DNA of 23,386 nt, from the IMG/VR virus record IMGVR_UViG_3300028589_000050, positions 1-23,386 of that record, one strand, 5' to 3'. The notes under the pieces were generated by a model, which worked only from the letters and a program-made list of their open reading frames with translations, had not been told where the DNA came from and did no database searches. This document shows positions 6,068-21,256 of the stretch, piece by piece (position 1 is the stretch's first letter; every line of letters begins with the position of its first letter). The translations under genes and the position numbers were made by a program. Origin of the DNA: a virus.

Positions 6068-6838
6068 ATGCACGGTATCAATACACTGCGTAAATTGTTC
6101 GGCCTAGTGCCGATGAGCGAAGCGCCAGCGGATGGCGGCCAGGGTGGCGGCGGAAGCGATCCAGCTCCTACAGGTTCCGACTCCGCGCCAACCGGCGAAA
6201 CCCCTGTAAACGTTGAAGGTTCCAGCCTGCTGGGCGACCTGAAACCCGAGGAAAAAACCGATCTCGCTCCTACAGATGAAAAGCCTGAAGGCGAGAAGAA
6301 AGACGACGAGGACGGCGAGAAGAAGGACGACAAGCCGGACGAAGGCGCCCCGGAAGTGTACGAGGCATTCAAGGCCCCGGACGGCATCGAGCTCGACGAA
6401 GCCGTGATGCCCGAAGTACACGAAATCTTCAAAGACCTGGGCCTGTCGCAAGAGAAGGCGCAGGAGGTTTTCGAAAAGTTCCTGGGCATTCAGCAGAAGC
6501 TCGCAGGCACCCCGGAAGAGCAGATGCAGGCCGCCGAGCAGCAGATCGTCGCACTGAACACGCGCCTGGCCGAAGAGTGCAAAAACCTGCCGGAAATCGG
6601 CGGGGAGAAGTTTGCCGAATCGCTGGCCACCGCATCGAAAGTGATTCAACAGTTCGGCACACCGGAATTTCGCCAGCTGGTTGCCTACACTGGCGTGGGA
6701 TCGCACCCGGAATTTTTTAAGATGATGGTTGCAATTGGTTCTAAGATGTCCCCCGATAACTTTGTGCAAGGAGGCGATCCGGCAGTAACCGAGCGCCGAG
6801 GCGAAGACATCATGTTTGGCCACCTGTTCAAAAAGTAA
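6068..6838 (+). CDS. Capsid assembly scaffolding protein
   Basis: The protein has 256 residues. Scaffolding proteins guide capsid subunits into a correctly sized prohead and then leave. The N-terminal third is low-complexity and strongly charged, with runs of E, K and D around residues 60-95, which is typical of disordered scaffold N-termini. The rest is predicted to be helical, with a KAPDGIELDEAVMPEVHEIFKD segment that matches the T7-type capsid assembly and scaffold proteins. The C-terminal segment carries GVGSHPEFFKMM, another motif common in this group. It starts directly after the stop of the previous gene, with GGGGGA 8 bases upstream, and lies immediately before the major capsid gene, the usual place for a scaffold. 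Confidence 0.87.
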   Translation: MHGINTLRKLFGLVPMSEAPADGGQGGGGSDPAPTGSDSAPTGETPVNVEGSSLLGDLKPEEKTDLAPTDEKPEGEKKDDEDGEKKDDKPDEGAPEVYEAFKAPDGIELDEAVMPEVHEIFKDLGLSQEKAQEVFEKFLGIQQKLAGTPEEQMQAAEQQIVALNTRLAEECKNLPEIGGEKFAESLATASKVIQQFGTPEFRQLVAYTGVGSHPEFFKMMVAIGSKMSPDNFVQGGDPAVTERRGEDIMFGHLFKK

Positions 6839-6871
6839 CACCACCCCGAAAAAGTGAAGAGGATTTAAACC

Positions 6872-7876
6872 ATGGCATTGCTCTCTACCGTCTCGCTGAC
6901 GCTGGCCGACTTGGCGAAACGCCAGGAAGGTACTGACGCCGGGAAGAAAATCGCGATCATCATCGAGATTCTCTCCCTGCAAAACGAAATGCTGCAGGAC
7001 ATCCCATGGATGCCGGGTAACGACGGCACCGGCCACAAGACCACCGTGCGGTCCGGCCTGCCATCCGGCACCTGGCGCAAACTGAACTATGGTGTGCAGC
7101 CTGAGAAGTCGACCACCGTTCAGATCCGCGATCAAACCGGCATGCTTGAAACCTACTCCGAGATCGACAAGAAGCTGGTGGCGATCTCCAAGGACAAAGA
7201 AGGCTTCATGATGTCCGAGAGCCGTGCTTTCCTTGAAGGCATGTCGCAGAACATGGGCACCCAGCTGATCTACGGTGACGCTGCAGTCAACCCTGAGCGC
7301 ATCACCGGCCTGGCGCCTCGCTTCAACAGCCTGGCAGCTGAGAACGGTGACAACATCATCGACTGCGGCGGCACCGGTTCCACCAACACTTCCATGTGGC
7401 TGATCGCCTGGGGCGATACCACCGTGCACGGGATCTTCCCGGACGGTTCGGTGGGCGGTATCCAGATCGGGGAAACCAAGGAAGAAACCCTGCTGGACAA
7501 CCAGACCCCTGCTGGCAAGTACGAAGGCTACCGCACCCACTACAGCTGGGACGCTGGCCTGACCGTGCGTGACTGGCGCTACGTGGTGCGCGCCGCCAAC
7601 ATCGACGTGACCACCTTGAAGAAGGACGCCGCGACCGGTCCGGATCTGGTCGACATCATGGTGCAGATGCTGGAACTGCTGCCGAACGAAACCACCGGCA
7701 CCCTGCGTTTCTACGTGCCGCGTGTGATCCGTTCTTACCTGCGCCGTCAGATCAAGAACAGCAAAAACGTGTTCATCAACATGGGCGAAGTAGCTGGCAA
7801 GAAGGCCGTGATGTTCGACGACGTTCCTGTTCGCCGCATGGATGCCATCCTGTCCAACGAAGCCCGCGTGGTCTGA
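6872..7876 (+). CDS. Major capsid protein
   Basis: The protein has 334 residues, close to the 327-335 residues I recall for the BPP-1 and epsilon15 capsid proteins. It builds the icosahedral shell. Supporting features are the N-terminal helix-rich part (LTLADLAKRQEG), a glycine-rich TTVRSGLPSGTWRKLNYGV segment near residues 54-72, a mixed central region, and a C-terminal part ending in DDVPVRRMDAILSNEA, typical of the HK97-fold proteins of these phages. There is no N-terminal protease-cleaved delta domain, which fits the presence of a separate scaffold. The gene has a strong ribosome site (AAGAGGA at 6857-6863), follows the scaffold after 33 bases, and is followed by a hairpin at 7883-7902. 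Its codon use looks strongly biased, as for a highly expressed protein, though I did not count it. Confidence 0.92.
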   Translation: MALLSTVSLTLADLAKRQEGTDAGKKIAIIIEILSLQNEMLQDIPWMPGNDGTGHKTTVRSGLPSGTWRKLNYGVQPEKSTTVQIRDQTGMLETYSEIDKKLVAISKDKEGFMMSESRAFLEGMSQNMGTQLIYGDAAVNPERITGLAPRFNSLAAENGDNIIDCGGTGSTNTSMWLIAWGDTTVHGIFPDGSVGGIQIGETKEETLLDNQTPAGKYEGYRTHYSWDAGLTVRDWRYVVRAANIDVTTLKKDAATGPDLVDIMVQMLELLPNETTGTLRFYVPRVIRSYLRRQIKNSKNVFINMGEVAGKKAVMFDDVPVRRMDAILSNEARVV

Positions 7877-7882
7877 TTCGAC

Positions 7883-7902
7883 GCCGCCCAGCGATGGGCG
7901 GC
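7883..7902 (+). terminator. Perfect 8-bp hairpin with GNRA-type loop after the capsid gene
   Basis: GCCGCCCA and TGGGCGGC form a perfect 8-base-pair stem around a GCGA tetraloop, a GNRA type. It starts 6 bases after the capsid stop. The bases that follow (ATGACCCTTTGCCTTT) are only partly U-rich, so this may be a weak terminator or a 3' RNA-stabilising stem for capsid mRNA rather than a full stop. Confidence 0.6.
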
Positions 7903-7936
7903 ATGACCCTTTGCCTTTCATGATTGAGGAAACAAC

Positions 7937-8374
7937 ATGAGCATCATCGACCGCTTCCTGCAAGTCTCCAACAACCAGGCGATCACCGTGACCGCCGTAT
8001 CCACCGACGTGATCGACGCCGGCGCCACCAAGAACGCAGCCATCGGCCGTGACCTTGGCGGCGGCACTCAGCTGTTCATGGAAATTTGCGTGACCGCCAC
8101 CATGACCGGCGCCGGCACCCTGGCCATCGCCCTGCAAGACTCGGCGGACAACTCCAGCTTTGCCGACGTGCTGAGCCTGCCACCGATTGCCGTGGCCAGC
8201 CTGCCAGTGGGCACCCGCCTGTACATCCCACTGCCGGCCAAAATGCGCCGCTACATCCGCAACAACTACACCATCGCTTCCGGTCCATTCACCGGGGGCA
8301 CCCTGAGCGCTCAAGTCGTCGACGGCATGACGGTTGAACGCGCCTACCCTGACTCGCTCAGCAAAGTGGTTTAA
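7937..8374 (+). CDS. Capsid cement/decoration protein, Bbp16-like
   Basis: The protein has 145 residues. It lies directly after the capsid gene, where podoviruses of the BPP-1 group encode their cement protein, a jelly-roll protein that clamps neighbouring capsid subunits. The sequence fits: an N-terminal IIDRFLQVSNNQAITVTAVST strand, the VIDAGATKNAAIGRDLGGG loop, and LAIALQDSADNSSF, where the L-x-L-Q-x-S-x-D pattern is typical of this family as I remember it. It is beta-rich, with few charged residues and no cysteine pair. TGAGGA at 7925-7930 gives a 6-base spacing. An alternative reading would be a generic head decoration protein, which has the same role in broad terms. Confidence 0.8.
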   Translation: MSIIDRFLQVSNNQAITVTAVSTDVIDAGATKNAAIGRDLGGGTQLFMEICVTATMTGAGTLAIALQDSADNSSFADVLSLPPIAVASLPVGTRLYIPLPAKMRRYIRNNYTIASGPFTGGTLSAQVVDGMTVERAYPDSLSKVV

Positions 8375-12851: not shown

Positions 12852-14951
12852 ATGGCCGTACAAATTCCAACGCTCGGCGGTCCAGGCGTGCGCACTCGCG
12901 CCATGGCCGTTCCACAGGTGCAAGTCGCCACCGAAGACAGCCTTGGCGCCGATCTGGCGAAGCCAATCACCCAGGCCGCAGGGCAGATCTGGCAGAAGAC
13001 CCAGGACGACGCCGACACCGCCGCACTGATGGAGGCGGAAAGCAGCCTGAGCCAGTGGCAGACCAACACCCTGTTCAACCCGGACAACGGCGTGTACACC
13101 CGCAAGGGCAAGAACGCCATCGACATCACCAACCAGACGCTGCCTCAGTTCCAGGCCCAGGTTGACGCGATCAGCAACAACCTCACCAACGACCGCCAGC
13201 GCCAGCGCTTCAGCCAGATCGCCAAGAGCCAGGAAACACGCTTAAACGGCGAGCTGAACCGCTACGAATACGGCGAGCGCCAAGTGTTCTACAAGCAGGC
13301 CGAGGACGCCACGTTGAACGCCGCCACGCAAAGCGCCGTGGCCTATTACGACGACCCGCAGCAAGTGGCCTACTACCAGAACAAGGGCACCCGCGTCATC
13401 GCCATGCAGGGCGAGCGCAACGGTGAAGCGCCGGAACTGACCCAGGAAAAGGTCTTGCAGTACAACAGCGGCATCAATACCGCCGTGATCCAGCGCCTGA
13501 TGCAGACCGACCCTATCGGCGCCCAGCGCTATTACGCCAAGGCCTACGACGGTATGACCGTTGACGACCAGGCCAAGACCACCAAGTTGCTTGGGACCAG
13601 CGTGCGCCAGCAGCTGGGCAGCCAGATCGGCGAAGCCGCCTACACCGCCGGCACCGTGGGCATCAATGGCCTGAGCAATCTGGTGATCCAGGCCGAGAGC
13701 AGCGGCGATCCTACGGCTGTCTCGCCAAAAGGCGCCAAGGGCCTGATGCAGCTGATGCCAGAGACGGCCGAAGAAATGGCCAAGGAACTTGGCATTCCCT
13801 ACAGCGAAGAACGCCTGACCGCCGACCCGAACTACAACATGGCCCTGGGCAATGCCTACCTGAACAAGATGCTGGGGCGTTACGGCGGCAACTCGACACT
13901 GGCCGTCGCCGCGTACAACGCTGGCCCTGGCAGCGTGGACAAGTGGATCAAGGCCAACGGTGACCCGCGCACCGATCAGATCACAGATGAAGCCTGGATC
14001 AACGCCATCCCCTTCGAAGAAACCCGCAACTACACCGGCAAGATCGTCAGCCAGCTGGTTCCGTCGACGGCCAGCAGCAAACTTGCCGCCGCCACTAGTG
14101 CCGCCGCCAAGATCAAAGACCCGGAGACGCGAAAATACGCGATGGACCGCATCGACGACCTGAACAAAGCCGACCAGCTGACGATCAAGGCCAACTACGA
14201 GACGGCCGCCAACATCGCGCTTGAGGACGGTTATAACGCCATCCCTCCGCAGGTGCTGGTGACCATCGGCGCTGAAGACCGGGTGAAGCTGCAGGCGCTC
14301 GACGAACACCGGCGCAAAGGCACCGAGCCGACCACCGACGAAGGCAAGCTGCGTGAATTCCTGTCGATGCCAGGTCCGCAGTTCGGCGAACTGAGCCTGA
14401 CCCGCGACATCCGCCCGTACCTCAACGATGCCGATTACAAGACCGTCAAAAGTTCTTGGGAGAAAGCCGTGCAGGGCGACTTCAGCGACCAGCGTGCGAC
14501 CAAGGCCGAGAACGATCAGCTGACGCTGGTGATGCAGCAGGCCGGGATTCTCACAGGCGATAGTCTCAAGGCTACGTCACCAAAGAACCTGGCCGCCCAA
14601 GAGAAGTTCCGCGCCTCCTACCAGAGCCAGAAGGATGCTTTCTTCCTGGCCAACGGCCGCCAGCCCACCGCCAAGGAATCCAGCGACATCGCCAACTCAC
14701 TGCTGATCGACGTGCGCCTGCGCGGGACCGGAATCACCAGCGACAACACCCAGCAGCTGTGGAATGTGGCGCCGGAGCAGATGCAAGACGCCTACCTGCG
14801 CGCCAAAGACATAGGCCTGAATGACATCCCGCCAACCGACCGGGCGAAGATCGTACGCACCTTGCGTAACCGCGGCGAACCGGCCAGCGCAGAAAACATC
14901 ATTGCCATGTATGTTCAGGGCATTTCTGATCTTGGAGTGAAAGCACAATGA
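12852..14951 (+). CDS. Internal virion protein with lytic transglycosylase domain (gp15 position)
   Basis: The protein has 699 residues, similar to T7 gp15 (about 747). It is predicted to be ejected with the DNA and to build part of the periplasmic tube. It also carries a family 1 lytic transglycosylase (SLT) domain at about residues 273-400, with the likely catalytic glutamate E282 in IQAESSGD, the GLMQ motif at 297-300, and AYNAGP at 354-359. Such a domain cuts peptidoglycan glycan strands so DNA can cross the cell wall. Upstream, residues 1-265 are helical and glutamine-rich; downstream is a long helical region without recognised motifs. In T7 the SLT domain is in gp16, so it is placed differently here. 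The 3' end overlaps the next gene by 4 bases. Confidence 0.9.
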   Translation: MAVQIPTLGGPGVRTRAMAVPQVQVATEDSLGADLAKPITQAAGQIWQKTQDDADTAALMEAESSLSQWQTNTLFNPDNGVYTRKGKNAIDITNQTLPQFQAQVDAISNNLTNDRQRQRFSQIAKSQETRLNGELNRYEYGERQVFYKQAEDATLNAATQSAVAYYDDPQQVAYYQNKGTRVIAMQGERNGEAPELTQEKVLQYNSGINTAVIQRLMQTDPIGAQRYYAKAYDGMTVDDQAKTTKLLGTSVRQQLGSQIGEAAYTAGTVGINGLSNLVIQAESSGDPTAVSPKGAKGLMQLMPETAEEMAKELGIPYSEERLTADPNYNMALGNAYLNKMLGRYGGNSTLAVAAYNAGPGSVDKWIKANGDPRTDQITDEAWINAIPFEETRNYTGKIVSQLVPSTASSKLAAATSAAAKIKDPETRKYAMDRIDDLNKADQLTIKANYETAANIALEDGYNAIPPQVLVTIGAEDRVKLQALDEHRRKGTEPTTDEGKLREFLSMPGPQFGELSLTRDIRPYLNDADYKTVKSSWEKAVQGDFSDQRATKAENDQLTLVMQQAGILTGDSLKATSPKNLAAQEKFRASYQSQKDAFFLANGRQPTAKESSDIANSLLIDVRLRGTGITSDNTQQLWNVAPEQMQDAYLRAKDIGLNDIPPTDRAKIVRTLRNRGEPASAENIIAMYVQGISDLGVKAQ

Positions 14952-17900
14952 GCCTCGAAGTCCCATCGCTTCTGGCCCCCGTGGACGACACCGTCCAGCA
15001 ACCAACCCCTACGCCACTGACCACCGCCATCCGTGATTCGTTCGACGATGAGCGCACCGATTTCGTCAACAGCCTGAAGACAGTGGCCAGCATTGCCCCG
15101 GCCGAGTATGGCAAGGCCAATGCCACCGCCCGCCTGAGCGGAATTCCTGCCGCCACGCTGTACCAGCAACGCGACCGCATGGCCGAACTGGAGAAGGGCA
15201 ACAAGTACGCCGCCATCTACGATACCAGCCGCAAGACCGCCAACGCCCTACGCGACGGCAACTTGGCGGCCGTGGCACAGAACGACCTCGATGCCCTGAC
15301 CCGCATCGAAGGCGCGGCCAGCGACACCCGCTTCAACCAGCAGAGCCTGGGCGAAAAGATGCTCGGCGCGATTCAGCAGCAGTGGACCAGTCAGGCCCAG
15401 GGCACCAACGTCGCCGACGCCAGCAACCTGCAGAAGATCGGCGCCAGCTTTGACGCGGTGGATGCTGAGATTGCCCGCGCTACCGCCGCCGGCGTGCAAC
15501 CGTTCCTCGACGCCAGCGAACCCGGCGGCTTTGCCGGCGAGTACCTGCGCAGCACACCAGGGCAGCGCCAGATGATGCGAGACAACCTCAACAGCCAGCA
15601 AGCCGAGTTCGTCAGCCGCGTGGGCGAGCAGCAGCATGAACTGGAAGCGGCCCCGGTTGATCCGGCAGCGCGGCAGATCCAGCAGCTGCAGACCAGCGAT
15701 CAGATCGGCATCCCGCTCGGCGGCCTGGATCGTCAGGTGATCGACACCGGCGAAGGCATGAGCAGCTTCGATGCCACGCTGGAAGGCCTGACCCCTGGCT
15801 TTGCCGTCCGCACTGCGCTGGGCGCCGCCACGGCTTCAGCACCAACCTTGCTCGCCGGTGCCGTTGGCGGCATCCCGCTCGCCGCCGCGCTCAACTTCGG
15901 CACCGAGTTCGATGTGAAGCTGGCCGACGTGATCCGCGAAGCTGGCGTGGACTTCAAAGACCCGGCCGCTCTGATGAAGGCGCTGCAAGACGATGAACTG
16001 ATGGCCACCGCCAGCGACAAGGCCGTATTGAAGGCCGCCGGCACAACCGCCGTCGACACGCTGGGCATGATGTTCGCCGGCAAGCTGCTGGCGCCCACGC
16101 GCATTGCCGGCCGACCATTGACTGAAACCCAGCGCGAGCTGACCAACCTGGCCGTGCAGTTCCCTGTTCAGGGCATCAGCGAAGGCGCTGGTGAGGCCGC
16201 TGGGCAATTTGCCGCAGAAGGCAAGGTCGACACCGGAGAAGTGTTGCTGGAAGGCATTGCCGGCGGCCTGGGCTCCAGCGCCGACGTAATCGCCTTCGGT
16301 GGCAAACGCATGTTCACCACCCTAGCCGCTGGCCTGGAGAAATCCCGCCAGGCCCGCGTTGGCCAGCAATCGCTGAGCGCCGCCGCCGCCGCTTCCATGG
16401 AGAGCGAGACGCGCAAACTCGACCCTGGCACCTTCAACCAGATCGCCACCCAGCAGCTCGCCGGCACCCCGCTGGAAACCCTGTGGATTCCCGCCGCCGA
16501 GTTGCAGCGCCTGAACCAGTCCGGGGCCATCGACCTTCCGGCGATCCTGGCGCAGATCCCCGGCCTGACCGAACAGTTCGGCGATGCCTTGGTGCGTGAC
16601 GGAAACGTGGCGATGAAGGGCGCCGATTACCTGACTTACCTTGCCGACTACGACGAACAACTGTCGAAGAGCGTGCGCACCAGCGCCGGCAGCTTCAGCG
16701 CCGAGGATGCACAAGCCTGGAGCGACCAGCAGGAAGAGCAGTTGACCCAGCTCGCTGAAGAGTTCCGCAAAGGACCGGATGCACGCGCAAAAGCCCAGCA
16801 GGATTTTGTCGGGCAGTTGGTGCAGGCCGGCTTCCGTCGTGCCGATGCCGAGCAATACGCCGCCCTGCATTCGTCCGTGCTGACCAACCTGGCCGAGCGT
16901 AATGCGCTGGGCCTGGATCAACTGGATCAGCAATTCCCCCTCGACATCCGCAACAAGGCCCCGGAAGACCTGCGCCGCGTCAGCGTGGACGACGCCACCC
17001 TGCTGATCCAGCGTCTGCGCGCTGGCGACATTCCACAGGCCGGCGACATCTTCGGCAAGAGCCTGGGCCAATACCTGCGCGATGCCGGCGGCGTCAGTGA
17101 TGAAGGTGGCGAACTGGCCGCGCTGGACGCCGACGTGGGCAAGGTCGGGCGCAACCGCATCACCCGCAAAGACGGCGGCATAAGCCTCGACGATGCCGCG
17201 ATGAATGCCTGGGAACGCGGCTATTTCCCCGGCGTGACCCGCGAGCAAGTCACTCCGCAGCTGATCGTCGACGCCATGCGCGATGAGCTGGCCGGCAATC
17301 CGCGCTACAGCACCGAGCAGGAAAACCCGAACAAGGCCGACACCGCCGACACGCTCAACCAGCTGCAGGAGTATTTCGACCGCCTGGGCGTCAACCTCGA
17401 CGAGCTCAGCGATCAGGAAGCGCTGGCGCTTCTGCGCAACCCGCAAGCGGCAGAGGCCAGTGACCAGCAGCAGCTGGAACAGGGTGGTAACGATGACGCC
17501 GCCCGTGGCTTCATCACCTTCAGCCCACGCGGCCAGACCAACCGCAAATTCAACATCACCCTTGGCGAGAAGCGCGACCTGTCGACGCTGGTGCATGAGC
17601 TGGGGCACTACTACCTGGAAGTGATTCAGGATCTGGCCCAGGCCGAGAATGCGCCACAGCAGATCAAGGATGACGTGACAGCGATCCGCGACTGGGTGGG
17701 CGCCGAAGATGATGTGCCGCTGACCACCGAGCAGCACGAACAGTTCGCCCGCGGCTTCGAAGCGTACCTGGCCGAAGGCAAGGCCCCGGCGCCGGAACTG
17801 AACGGCGCGTTTGCCCGCTTCAAGCGCTGGATGCTCGCCATCTACAAGCACCTCAGCCGCCTGAACGTGGCGCTGAACGACGACGTGCGCCAGGTGTTTG

Positions 17901-20900
17901 ACCGCATCGTGGCCAGTGACGAGCAGATCCAAGACGCCGAACGCATTGCGGAAGCCCTGCCGCTGTTCAAGGATGCCGAAGCCGCCGGCATGACCGAAAC
18001 TGAGTTTGCCCAGTACCAGAACAGTATCGAGTTGGCGCACACCGACGCCCGCGACAGTGTGGAAGAGCAGATCACTCGGGAAGAAACGCGCCGCCAGTCG
18101 AAGTGGTGGAACGAACAGCTGGCCGCGATCCGCCAGGAAGTGACGGAAGAAGTCGACCTGCAGCCGGAATACGTGGCGCGCAATGCCCTGCGCAGTGGCC
18201 AGTCGCCGGACGGACGCCCTGGTGAATTCAAGCTGAACAGCAGCGAACTGGCCGACCGCTACGGCAAGCCCGCCGTACAGAAGCTGGCCTTCACCCACAG
18301 CAAAACCGGCATGCCACTGGACCTGGCCGCCAACATCCTGGGCTTCGAATCCGGCGACGACATGGTGAAGACCATGATGGGCGCGCAGCCACGCAAAGCC
18401 GTGATCGAGCAGGAAGCTCTGCGCCGCATGGAAGAGCGCCACGGGCCAAAGCAAACCGGCGAGATTGCCGAGCGCGCCATGGACGCCGTACACAATGAAC
18501 GCCGCGCCGAAGTGTTGGGCAAGGAACTGCGCCGCCTGGCCCAGGTGGGCAACCGCAAGAACGTCACCAGTCAGCAGATCCTCAAGGACGCCGCTGCCCG
18601 GGTGATGAGCGAGCGCAAGGTGCGCGACATCCAGCCGATTGAATACCAGCGCGCCGAGGCCAAAGCCTCGCGCCAATCCTTCGAAGCCTTCACCAAAGGC
18701 GATCTGGAAGCGGCGTATGAGGCCAAGCAGCGCCAGTTGCTGAACTTCTACCTGTACCGCGAAGCCAGCAAGGCCAAGGCCGAAGTGGAAACCATCACCG
18801 AGCGTCTGAACGGCTACAACAAGACCAGCAAGCGCCAGAAGATCGGCAAGGCCGGCGGCGACTACCTCGACCAGATCGATGCCGTCATGGAGCAATACGA
18901 GTTCCGCAACGTCAGCCTGCGCCAGATCGACAAGGCCAAGTCGTTTGGTCAGTGGTACAACGATCAGGTCGCGGCCGGCAACGATCCCTACGTACCGGAA
19001 TTCATCCTCAATACCATGGGCCGCACCAACTACAAGGAATTGAGCCTGGCCCAGCTGCAGGAGCTGGACGAGTTCGTCGCGCACCTCAACCACCTGGCCA
19101 GCCTCAAGGGCAAGTTGCAGGCCAACAAGCGCGTCAAAGACCAGAAGGAAGCGCAAACCCTGCTGATCCAGGCCATGGAACAGAACCTGAACAAGGGCAA
19201 GCCGCTGCCGCTCAACGATTCCAGCCGCACGCTGCCGGAAGCCATGGGCGATTGGCTGTCCGAGGCGAACAGTTCACTGATGAAGCTGGAACAGATCATT
19301 GAGCAAGCCGATGGCGGTGATCCGAACGGACCCTGGACACAGATCTGGTGGGAACCGCTGGCCGATGCCCAGGCGCGTCGCGACGACCTCAACCGCGAGA
19401 TCACCCAAAAACTGATGAAAGCCACCGATGAGTGGTTTGCCGCAGCTGGCGCCCGAGCTGGGCAGAAGGTTCACATCAACGGCCTGGGCAAATCCATCGA
19501 TTCCAACGGAATTCTGGCCACCGCGCTGAACAGCGGCAACGCTGGAAACCTGAAAAAGATGCTGGCCGGCAATGGCTGGAGCGATGCCACCCACGCCGAG
19601 ATCCTCAGCCACATGCAGGAGGCTGATTGGCGCTACGTGACCAACCTGTGGGAGATCGTCAATTCCCTGTGGCCGGACATCGTCGCGCTGGAAAAGCAGG
19701 TGAATGGCATCGCCCCGGAGAAGGTCGAAGGCATTCAGGTGCAGACCCCGTTCGGCGTGGTACAAGGCGGATACTGGCCGCTGGTCTACGACTTCCTGTC
19801 ACCGCAGTACGCCCAGGTGCAAGCCAACCTTGGCGAACTGTCACCCCTCAATGAACAAGGCGGCGCCCGTGCTACCACGCCACGCGGTCACACCAAGGCG
19901 CGGGTTGACGGCTTTGCGGCGCCTGTGGTGCTGGACGTGACCATGATCGCCAACCACCTGAGCGGCGTGATTCACGACCTGACCCACCGCGTGGCCATCG
20001 CTGACGCCCGCAAGCTGATCACCGCGCCGACCGTGCGCCAGGTGATGAACGAACGCATGGGGCGCTTCCAGGCGCAGCAGTTCGTCAACATCCTCGACGG
20101 CATCGCCAACGACCTGAGCCCGGGCAGCGCCAGGGGCGTGGGCATCTTCCGCCGCACGATGAACGCCCTGCGCGGCAACGCTGCCATCGCCTGGATGGGT
20201 TACAGCGTCAGCACGATGTTCAACCAGATCGGCGGCGCCAGCCAGGCACTGGAGTACTTCGCGCAGAAAGGCCAGCGCAAGGACTACATGCGCGCCCTGG
20301 CCAAGTTCAGCATGAACCCCATCGCCACCCGGGCCGAAGTCATGAGCCTGTCCGGCGAAATGCGCAACCGCTCTATCAACCTCGATCCGTCGATTCGTGA
20401 AGCCACCAACCGCATCATCCGCGTGGGTGAAGGGCGGATCGGTTCAGCCTTCAACAAGGTGAAGAACGGCCACGACGCCATCCGGCGCTGGGCCTTTGTG
20501 CCGATGTCGATGATGCAGAGCGTGGTCGACACCCCGGTGTGGATGGCCGCCTACGAGGCGGAAGGCGGCGTGAACTCGGGCAACGGTGGACAGGACGCTA
20601 TCCATGCCGCCGACCGTGCCGTGCGTCTCACGCAGATGGCCGGCGGAGCCAAGGACCTGGCCCCGATCCAGCACAACGAACTGGCGCGCTTCTTTCTTCT
20701 GGTCTACGGCTACGCCTCACTGCTGTGGAATCGCAACGTGGACATCGCCCGCAGTGGCGTGCAGTCGCTCAAGGACAAGGACGTGCAAGGCACGCTGGTC
20801 GCACTGGAGCGTTTCGTTTACCTGAATATCATCCCGGCGATCCTAGCCGGCGCGATCAAAGGCGCACTGCCGAATGGCGATGATGACGACCGCGACAAGG

Positions 20901-21256
20901 ACAAGATGGGCGACACCTGGCCGGAATACATCGCAATCCAGACCCTGCTGAGCGTCACCAACGGCGTTCCGCTGGCCCGCGATGCCGCGCAAGGCTTCTT
21001 CAGTGACTTCGGTTATGGCGGCGCCTCACCCATCGGCGGTGGCATTGACGCACTGATCAAGGCGTCCCACTCGACCAAGTCGGAAGCCCTGGCCACCAAC
21101 ATGACCACCGCTGTCGGCATGCTCACCGGCCTGCCTTCATCGCAGATTAACCGCGCCACGCGCACGTTCTACAAGCTGGAAGATGGTGAAATGGAGAACG
21201 ACGCCTTTACCATTGCCAAATCTGTACTGTTCGGCCCACCACCAAAGAAAGACTAA
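14948..21256 (+). CDS. Giant internal virion/ejection protein with HExxH metallopeptidase domain (gp16 position)
   Basis: The protein has 2102 residues, far more than T7 gp16 (1318). It holds the gp16 position and should be ejected into the host. N-terminal helices are followed by hydrophobic and glycine-rich parts at about residues 280-318 and 400-450. The second, with ISEGAGEAAGQF, looks like the associated regions of large polyvalent proteins. LVHELGHYYLEVI carries a zincin HExxH motif (H883, E884, H887). E931 or E938 in HEQFARGFEAYL is the candidate third zinc ligand. Residues about 1000-1700 are long charged helices. The C-terminal part has hydrophobic segments near 1743-1771, 1913-1938 and 1955-1977. 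The segment from VVDTPVWMAAYE through GGAKDLAPIQ matches a C-terminal module that I remember from large ejection proteins. No SLT domain is visible. It may process ejected or host proteins. The structural role is well supported; the protease activity is inferred. Confidence 0.88.
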   Translation: MSLEVPSLLAPVDDTVQQPTPTPLTTAIRDSFDDERTDFVNSLKTVASIAPAEYGKANATARLSGIPAATLYQQRDRMAELEKGNKYAAIYDTSRKTANALRDGNLAAVAQNDLDALTRIEGAASDTRFNQQSLGEKMLGAIQQQWTSQAQGTNVADASNLQKIGASFDAVDAEIARATAAGVQPFLDASEPGGFAGEYLRSTPGQRQMMRDNLNSQQAEFVSRVGEQQHELEAAPVDPAARQIQQLQTSDQIGIPLGGLDRQVIDTGEGMSSFDATLEGLTPGFAVRTALGAATASAPTLLAGAVGGIPLAAALNFGTEFDVKLADVIREAGVDFKDPAALMKALQDDELMATASDKAVLKAAGTTAVDTLGMMFAGKLLAPTRIAGRPLTETQRELTNLAVQFPVQGISEGAGEAAGQFAAEGKVDTGEVLLEGIAGGLGSSADVIAFGGKRMFTTLAAGLEKSRQARVGQQSLSAAAAASMESETRKLDPGTFNQIATQQLAGTPLETLWIPAAELQRLNQSGAIDLPAILAQIPGLTEQFGDALVRDGNVAMKGADYLTYLADYDEQLSKSVRTSAGSFSAEDAQAWSDQQEEQLTQLAEEFRKGPDARAKAQQDFVGQLVQAGFRRADAEQYAALHSSVLTNLAERNALGLDQLDQQFPLDIRNKAPEDLRRVSVDDATLLIQRLRAGDIPQAGDIFGKSLGQYLRDAGGVSDEGGELAALDADVGKVGRNRITRKDGGISLDDAAMNAWERGYFPGVTREQVTPQLIVDAMRDELAGNPRYSTEQENPNKADTADTLNQLQEYFDRLGVNLDELSDQEALALLRNPQAAEASDQQQLEQGGNDDAARGFITFSPRGQTNRKFNITLGEKRDLSTLVHELGHYYLEVIQDLAQAENAPQQIKDDVTAIRDWVGAEDDVPLTTEQHEQFARGFEAYLAEGKAPAPELNGAFARFKRWMLAIYKHLSRLNVALNDDVRQVFDRIVASDEQIQDAERIAEALPLFKDAEAAGMTETEFAQYQNSIELAHTDARDSVEEQITREETRRQSKWWNEQLAAIRQEVTEEVDLQPEYVARNALRSGQSPDGRPGEFKLNSSELADRYGKPAVQKLAFTHSKTGMPLDLAANILGFESGDDMVKTMMGAQPRKAVIEQEALRRMEERHGPKQTGEIAERAMDAVHNERRAEVLGKELRRLAQVGNRKNVTSQQILKDAAARVMSERKVRDIQPIEYQRAEAKASRQSFEAFTKGDLEAAYEAKQRQLLNFYLYREASKAKAEVETITERLNGYNKTSKRQKIGKAGGDYLDQIDAVMEQYEFRNVSLRQIDKAKSFGQWYNDQVAAGNDPYVPEFILNTMGRTNYKELSLAQLQELDEFVAHLNHLASLKGKLQANKRVKDQKEAQTLLIQAMEQNLNKGKPLPLNDSSRTLPEAMGDWLSEANSSLMKLEQIIEQADGGDPNGPWTQIWWEPLADAQARRDDLNREITQKLMKATDEWFAAAGARAGQKVHINGLGKSIDSNGILATALNSGNAGNLKKMLAGNGWSDATHAEILSHMQEADWRYVTNLWEIVNSLWPDIVALEKQVNGIAPEKVEGIQVQTPFGVVQGGYWPLVYDFLSPQYAQVQANLGELSPLNEQGGARATTPRGHTKARVDGFAAPVVLDVTMIANHLSGVIHDLTHRVAIADARKLITAPTVRQVMNERMGRFQAQQFVNILDGIANDLSPGSARGVGIFRRTMNALRGNAAIAWMGYSVSTMFNQIGGASQALEYFAQKGQRKDYMRALAKFSMNPIATRAEVMSLSGEMRNRSINLDPSIREATNRIIRVGEGRIGSAFNKVKNGHDAIRRWAFVPMSMMQSVVDTPVWMAAYEAEGGVNSGNGGQDAIHAADRAVRLTQMAGGAKDLAPIQHNELARFFLLVYGYASLLWNRNVDIARSGVQSLKDKDVQGTLVALERFVYLNIIPAILAGAIKGALPNGDDDDRDKDKMGDTWPEYIAIQTLLSVTNGVPLARDAAQGFFSDFGYGGASPIGGGIDALIKASHSTKSEALATNMTTAVGMLTGLPSSQINRATRTFYKLEDGEMENDAFTIAKSVLFGPPPKKD

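Follow-up and report, generated by a model that had tools for sequence, protein, structure and literature searches.

A giant Bbp10-family phage protein couples an invariant zincin domain to an L-x-Q motif at module junctions

The IMG/VR virus record IMGVR_UViG_3300028589_000050, an incomplete record that was analysed over its full 23,386 bases (the window), encodes a giant protein with a zincin-like metallopeptidase domain. Computation on this protein and its relatives reveals a modular architecture in which the zincin holds a fixed place, catalytic residues that are invariant, and a tight association between the zincin and a short L-x-Q motif found at module junctions. This pattern suggests that the zincin probably acts mainly on its own chain, at or near the L-x-Q junctions, and thereby separates effector modules from a large C-terminal module. 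The zincin domain is not a new discovery, as it was published in the CLCA_X family in 2013 and in polyvalent proteins in 2017. An earlier note on this DNA, made from the sequence alone, had already assigned the protein to a known class, and its relative Bbp10 is one of the seeds of the zincin family. What is added here is the fixed layout of the zincin and its association with L-x-Q; no L-x-Q-type processing motif was found in the literature searched, which misses most subscription papers.

An L-x-Q motif at module junctions

Linkers that precede the zincin repeatedly contain L-x-Q, in forms such as LFQ, LNQG and LYQG. We counted the broader form [LFYIVM]xQ in the segment 25–45 residues before the HExxH motif, leaving out the zincin's internal [FY]IQF strand. 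The motif is present in 112 of 122 non-redundant relatives, compared to ∼30% in windows of the same width placed further upstream. The Leu and Gln codons of L-x-Q both vary, a sign of selection at the protein level; in this codon count, the Q and P2 tallies still contained some IQF strands.

The same motif is seen at the ends of ADP-ribosyltransferase (ART) cassettes. Where the cassette lies hundreds of residues upstream of the zincin, L-x-Q follows it in 12 of 13 copies. As a control, ART cassettes were collected across viral contigs by means of the pattern [VIT][GNE]N[RVT]G[TES]FD[PA], of which L-x-Q is not a part. In this set, the ART end is L-x-Q in 25/26 cases from zincin-bearing open reading frames (ORFs) versus 5/50 from other ORFs (Fisher P = 4e-14), and the cassettes without a zincin often end as DIRYS or DIRFS. 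Among the five exceptions in the latter set, one (L212) has a zincin and C-terminal module downstream in another frame, three come from ORFs cut by the contig end (L225, L253 and L268), and one (L242) bears a different type of HExxH. A tree built from 102 ART domains shows 33 changes of the zincin label, close to the mean of 34.4 for shuffled labels, and hence common descent fails to explain the association. As judged from this tree, ART cassettes move freely between contexts, and L-x-Q follows the zincin.

Conservation, predicted fold and layout of the zincin-bearing protein

The earlier note described a 2102-residue protein, and the corresponding ORF indeed runs along the plus strand with no internal stop; its start overlaps the upstream stop codon as ATGA. 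The protein falls in phrog_9880 (E = 0), and Bbp10 of Bordetella phage BPP-1 is among its relatives. Searches with tblastn recovered relatives in 43 phage records, including Pseudomonas phages HU1 and AF (∼50% identity), Xanthomonas phage CP2, Cobetia phage Carin1, Bordetella phage BPP-1, and phages of Vibrio, Caulobacter and cyanobacteria. LPD22 is common to all ten family members scanned (the window and nine relatives). Many members of the family are annotated as lysin, lysis protein or beta/gamma-crystallin motif protein, names for which we find no support here. One relative, Limnohabitans phage DC33 (L020, PQ492659.1), whose circular record of 39 kb bears tailed-phage genes of the Bbp10-type family, is filed under Inoviridae, and this taxonomy line is probably wrong.

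HELGH is the sole HExxH in the giant protein, compared to a chance expectation of 0.017 per protein from composition, and HELGH, E931 and E938 all lie at the residue numbers reported in the earlier note. HExxH, E931 and E938 are kept in 24/24 diverse homologues that were aligned. HExxH is also kept in 80/80 loci fetched with the pattern ExYxxEGKAP, which contains no HExxH and includes E938 but not E931. It is further kept in 75/75 evaluable loci fetched with GGYxPxxY, a pattern that lies ∼720 residues downstream; in one locus it is in a neighbouring frame, and five more loci, in which the contig ends before the zincin, were left out. Loss of H883, E884 or H887 among homologues would have spoken against a metallopeptidase, and no such loss was seen. 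These residues are never lost, a pattern that an enzyme should show, and on this basis we regard the zincin as catalytically intact.

For the third metal ligand, the earlier note had proposed E931 or E938. Both are invariant, and conservation therefore leaves the choice between them where it was. E931 appears the better fit, because a sub-threshold Peptidase_M78 alignment spans HELGH to F937 and because the residue sits in an E-x-x-A-x-x-F pattern.

AlphaFold2, supplied with 59 homologues, models the zincin block with a predicted local distance difference test (pLDDT) of ∼92–97 across the HExxH helix and the bulk of the helices after it. In model numbering (add 689 for the protein), a helix (133–149) precedes three strands (152–155, 165–169 and 179–183), the HExxH helix (189–209) and the helix with E931 and E938 (238–254); the last two correspond to residues 878–898 and 927–943. 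This is the minimal zincin order of the polyvalent metallopeptidases (PMC5512222). The predicted structure thus has strands, HExxH helix and Glu helix in the order expected of a zincin, although searches against known zincin families and solved zincin structures gave nothing significant. Searches of Pfam, NCBIfam and PDB sequences with the zincin gave sub-threshold matches only (Peptidase_M78, DUF4344, M3 and SprT), and these weak profile matches are recurrently to HExxH metallopeptidases. A Foldseek search of the 421-residue zincin model against the PDB gave a best E of 0.73, with a multi-domain query whose many flanking helices make it a poor test of the core. Collectively, conservation, gene context and predicted fold support the view of the earlier note that an intact zincin-type domain resides in a polyvalent-type protein whose gene lies among those for virion proteins.

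The position of the zincin is fixed relative to the C-terminus. In 72 complete relatives of the GGYxPxxY set, the distance from HExxH to the C-terminus is 1182–1346 residues (standard deviation 30), and the median in the ExYxxEGKAP set is 1234.5, with one truncated outlier at 573. By comparison, the number of residues preceding HExxH ranges from 628 to 1731 in the former set and reaches 2084 in the latter. Given the fixed distance on one side and the variable length on the other, the zincin always borders the variable zone. The C-terminal module is of near-constant length across the family, and a Foldseek search with it against the PDB returned a best match of E = 0.36, with no known relative. 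Two loci that suggested a natural gene fission between zincin and C-terminal module (L128 and L214) were set aside; the frame end of L128 looks out of frame and is probably a frameshift.

On the variable side, cassettes differ even between close relatives. L007 and L008 have no counterpart of residues 701–800 of the window protein (in L008, residues 1–700 join 801–900), even though the flanks are 85–89% identical, and this indicates on sequence grounds that cassette exchange is recent. Among 52 relatives scanned, the cassettes before the zincin include ART-PolyVal in 16 and PBECR5 in 9, along with GNAT, PBECR3, LPD3, LPD23, ddrB-ParB, RadC, Zeta toxin and GGDEF. Positions were mapped in nine relatives; for example, PBECR1 (643–729) precedes HESGH at 797 in BPP-1, and ART (575–740) precedes HEAGH at 783 in SR18. 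In the window protein, Pfam recognises no effector domain.

A separate observation concerns LPD23. In Pseudomonas phage AF (L010, residues 669–830), and also in L031 and L271–L350, LPD23 is followed by a second motif, HEVQH or HEIQHAIQxxEGFA. This is a different metallopeptidase motif, and some giant proteins hence have two HExxH domains. The pairing of LPD23 with a later HExxH is widespread in phage proteins that have no Bbp10-type zincin, and there it occurs without L-x-Q.

Putative self-processing and its alternatives

The proposal we favour is that the protein is a modular chain, with an N-terminal part that carries LPD22, interchangeable effector cassettes, the zincin, and a nearly all-helical C-terminal module of ∼1100 residues. 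The main substrate of the zincin would be the giant chain, cut either in cis or by another copy; the zincin would recognise the short L-x-Q segments where modules meet, or cut close to them, and so free the effector modules from the C-terminal one. In the window, the junction is predicted at Q845, giving fragments of ∼90 and 139 kDa. The earlier note had left the target open among an ejection protein, a host defence protein and an envelope protein. Since the zincin keeps its place and L-x-Q recurs where cassettes meet, its own chain is a likelier substrate than a host protein. We infer cleavage itself, the exact scissile bond and its timing (during assembly, in the head or after ejection) from this pattern, and the giant protein is probably packaged in the virion and injected with the DNA. 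In a broader version of the proposal, the zincin would read an L-x-Q code at effector borders, and incoming cassettes would acquire an L-x-Q border and so stay releasable, making the protein a self-cutting polyprotein; we give this version about an even chance.

Self-processing by zincin domains of this kind was proposed earlier, when it was suggested that the zincins of polyvalent proteins free their partner domains (PMC5512222). That paper defined no cut site: the words scissile, linker and recognition site are absent from the text, and ‘cleavage site’ appears in its reference list only. Our data support this 2017 hypothesis and make it specific, as the L-x-Q association provides a concrete, mutable site with predicted fragment sizes, and the idea thereby becomes testable. 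If the proposal is true, L-x-Q could mark effector borders in large phage proteins and serve as a junction code for modular, injected phage effectors. The zincin would then be a possible sequence-specific protease of a little-studied family, and one could explain how the giant injected proteins of podophages join an ejection module with many unrelated enzymes.

A number of observations weigh against self-processing at L-x-Q. The motif is absent in 10 of the 122 relatives, and the ART tree is built on a short alignment and has weak supports. LPD23 would seem to replicate the ART result, with L-x-Q directly before the FAG start in 8/8 copies with a zincin versus 0/50 without, but these eight cluster on the tree (2 label changes), and the replicate, being confounded by descent, carries little weight. 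In the AlphaFold2 model, the zincin opens with a short strand that contains the LEQ of the window, and so L-x-Q beside the zincin could be structural. As the zincin always occurs within the giant-protein family here, an effect of the family and an effect of the protease are not fully separable. N4 virion RNA polymerase (vRNAP), despite a similar layout, is reported to be packaged unprocessed (PMC5512222), and the N4 segment shown before HELVH has no L-x-Q. Finally, neither biochemical nor proteomic evidence of cleavage was found in the literature searched, which likewise yielded no virion proteomics of a giant protein of the Bbp10 family.

Other explanations account for parts of the same data. 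The zincin could be an effector that cuts a host defence or envelope protein after injection, with L-x-Q reflecting only a linker preference of the family. This possibility was raised in PMC5512222 and agrees with the invariance of the catalytic residues and with the host-directed look of the variable cassettes in the same chain. We nevertheless regard it as unlikely, since effectors swap, yet the zincin is present in every evaluable chain with the C-terminal module across very different hosts, which fits an internal function; nor does it explain why L-x-Q follows ART almost only in zincin-bearing chains. Slightly less credit goes to the idea that the domain is a structural element for packaging that carries out no proteolysis, L-x-Q being the first strand of the fold. 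Here one can point to the predicted strand that includes LEQ, to the lack of a significant match to a proven protease, and to N4, where a region including the HExxH domain is needed for encapsidation of a polymerase that stays unprocessed (PMC5512222). But E884, which in zincins is the catalytic base and not a metal ligand, is never lost, and a zincin strand cannot account for the L-x-Q segments that end distant upstream ART cassettes.

It is also improbable, and a little more so, that the zincin works in trans on other virion proteins, such as the SLT protein or a scaffold, during particle maturation. Phages commonly use proteolytic maturation, and the zincin gene sits beside genes for other internal virion proteins. 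However, another gene in the window codes for a protease, the capsid proteins of BPP-1 are reported to be uncleaved (PMC3863775), and the distribution of L-x-Q implicates the giant chain. Most improbable by far is that L-x-Q is a recombination scar, with cassettes swapping at sequences that encode it and the zincin association being mechanical. Cassette exchange is frequent and L-x-Q does lie at cassette borders, but the middle residue is free and all six Leu codons and both Gln codons are used, so that the motif offers little shared DNA sequence for recombination. Self-processing by the zincin at or near L-x-Q is therefore the reading we retain.

Gene neighbourhood and comparison with known systems

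The record is probably a fragment of a larger genome. Its genes begin with a holin, terminase subunits, portal, protease, a BPP-1/epsilon15-type capsid protein and tail tube proteins, and continue with a T7_gp14-like protein, an SLT-domain virion protein, the giant protein and a T7-type tail-fibre N-terminus. The last four genes follow the order implied in the earlier note, and the arrangement as a whole resembles that of epsilon15 and BPP-1. A lysozyme or SLT protein occupies the equivalent place in AF, HU1, UFJF_PfDIW6, Carin1 and epsilon15, and the SLT protein of the window is probably the partner of the giant protein in the ejection apparatus. Two long antisense ORFs with TTG starts face long genes, at 16322–19156 (minus strand, 944 residues) and 6104–8314 (minus strand, 736 residues), and these are most likely an effect of codon composition rather than genes. 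Coordinates are collected in Table 1.

Table 1. Features of the window discussed in the text
Feature	Position	Strand	Basis
Gene for giant polyvalent-type protein (probable virion/ejection protein), 2102 residues	14948..21256	+	ORF, translation, phrog_9880 E=0
LPD22 domain, residues 41-133	15068..15346	+	Pfam PF18834 E=9.8e-16
Variable segment, residues ~701-800, cassette zone	17048..17347	+	absent from L007/L008
L843-E844-Q845, candidate L-x-Q processing motif before the zincin, QQQLEQGGNDDAARG	17474..17482	+	motif frequency
Predicted zincin core, residues ~853-955 (strands, HExxH helix, Glu helix)	17504..17812	+	AlphaFold2, conservation
HELGH, residues 883-887, two predicted metal ligands and catalytic Glu	17594..17608	+	invariant
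E931, HEqfArgFE context, likeliest third metal ligand	17738..17740	+	invariant in three alignments; sub-threshold M78 alignment spans E931
E938, also invariant, on the helix of E931; alternative ligand	17759..17761	+	invariant in three alignments
Constant C-terminal module, residues 1005-2102, nearly all helical	17960..21253	+	AlphaFold2 pLDDT 82.9, predicted template-modelling score (pTM) 0.71
SLT virion protein, upstream neighbour of the giant gene	12852..14951	+	Pfam SLT (transglycosylase) E=4e-29
Separate protease gene	6068-6838		phrog_458
Tail-fibre gene, T7-type N-terminus, runs off contig end	21269-23386	+	

The earlier note took the protein to sit where T7 encodes gp16. The gene position fits, near the tail fibre gene and after a T7_gp14-like protein, but no similarity in sequence or fold was detected, and T7 gp16, unlike the giant protein with its separate SLT neighbour, carries SLT itself. 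In epsilon15 (L110, 14669–19329), the position near the tailspike gene and after a T7_gp14-like protein is the same, and so is the gene order, except that two genes, gp16 (634 residues) and gp17 (918 residues), stand in place of the giant one. Neither has HExxH, and only gp16 is weakly similar to the N-terminal part of the giant protein. We also considered homology of the C-terminal module to T7 gp16 or epsilon15 gp17 and rejected it.

N4 vRNAP (gp50) is alike in layout, with a cargo, an HExxH domain and ∼1100 helical residues, and C1/C2 domains have been described for it (PMC12633501); its HExxH lies 1273 residues from the end, compared to ∼1235 here. Homology between the two was rejected (hmmsearch E 0.25, hhalign probability 7% or less). 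Among the Schitoviridae, N4-like vRNAPs with a complete end (L352–L372) likewise place HExxH at a nearly constant ∼1267–1300 residues from the C-terminus, not far from the Bbp10-family value, and these have no detectable sequence homology to the Bbp10 family.

The closest comparison is with Bbp10 of BPP-1, which belongs to the same family, shares ∼30% identity over window residues 842–2086, has HESGH at 797, carries an N-terminal LPD22 and occupies the same place in the late gene block. It differs in the PBECR1 domain, a predicted RNase, that precedes its zincin, where Pfam recognises no domain in the window. Residues 700–1000 of Bbp10 are one seed of the CLCA_X family (PMC3650047, 2013), and the window protein is homologous to this seed. 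The paper gives the consensus HExxHxxxD, and the sections of it that were read describe no processing motif; the window has E891 at the place of the Asp, which is not conserved in our alignment. In its likely mode of action, the giant protein resembles the polyvalent metallopeptidase proteins of 2017 (PMC5512222): it joins several domains of the polyvalent set in one chain, with LPD22 and the zincin in the window and ART, PBECR, GNAT and LPD cassettes in orthologues, and its gene sits, by domain and phrog assignments, among virion genes.

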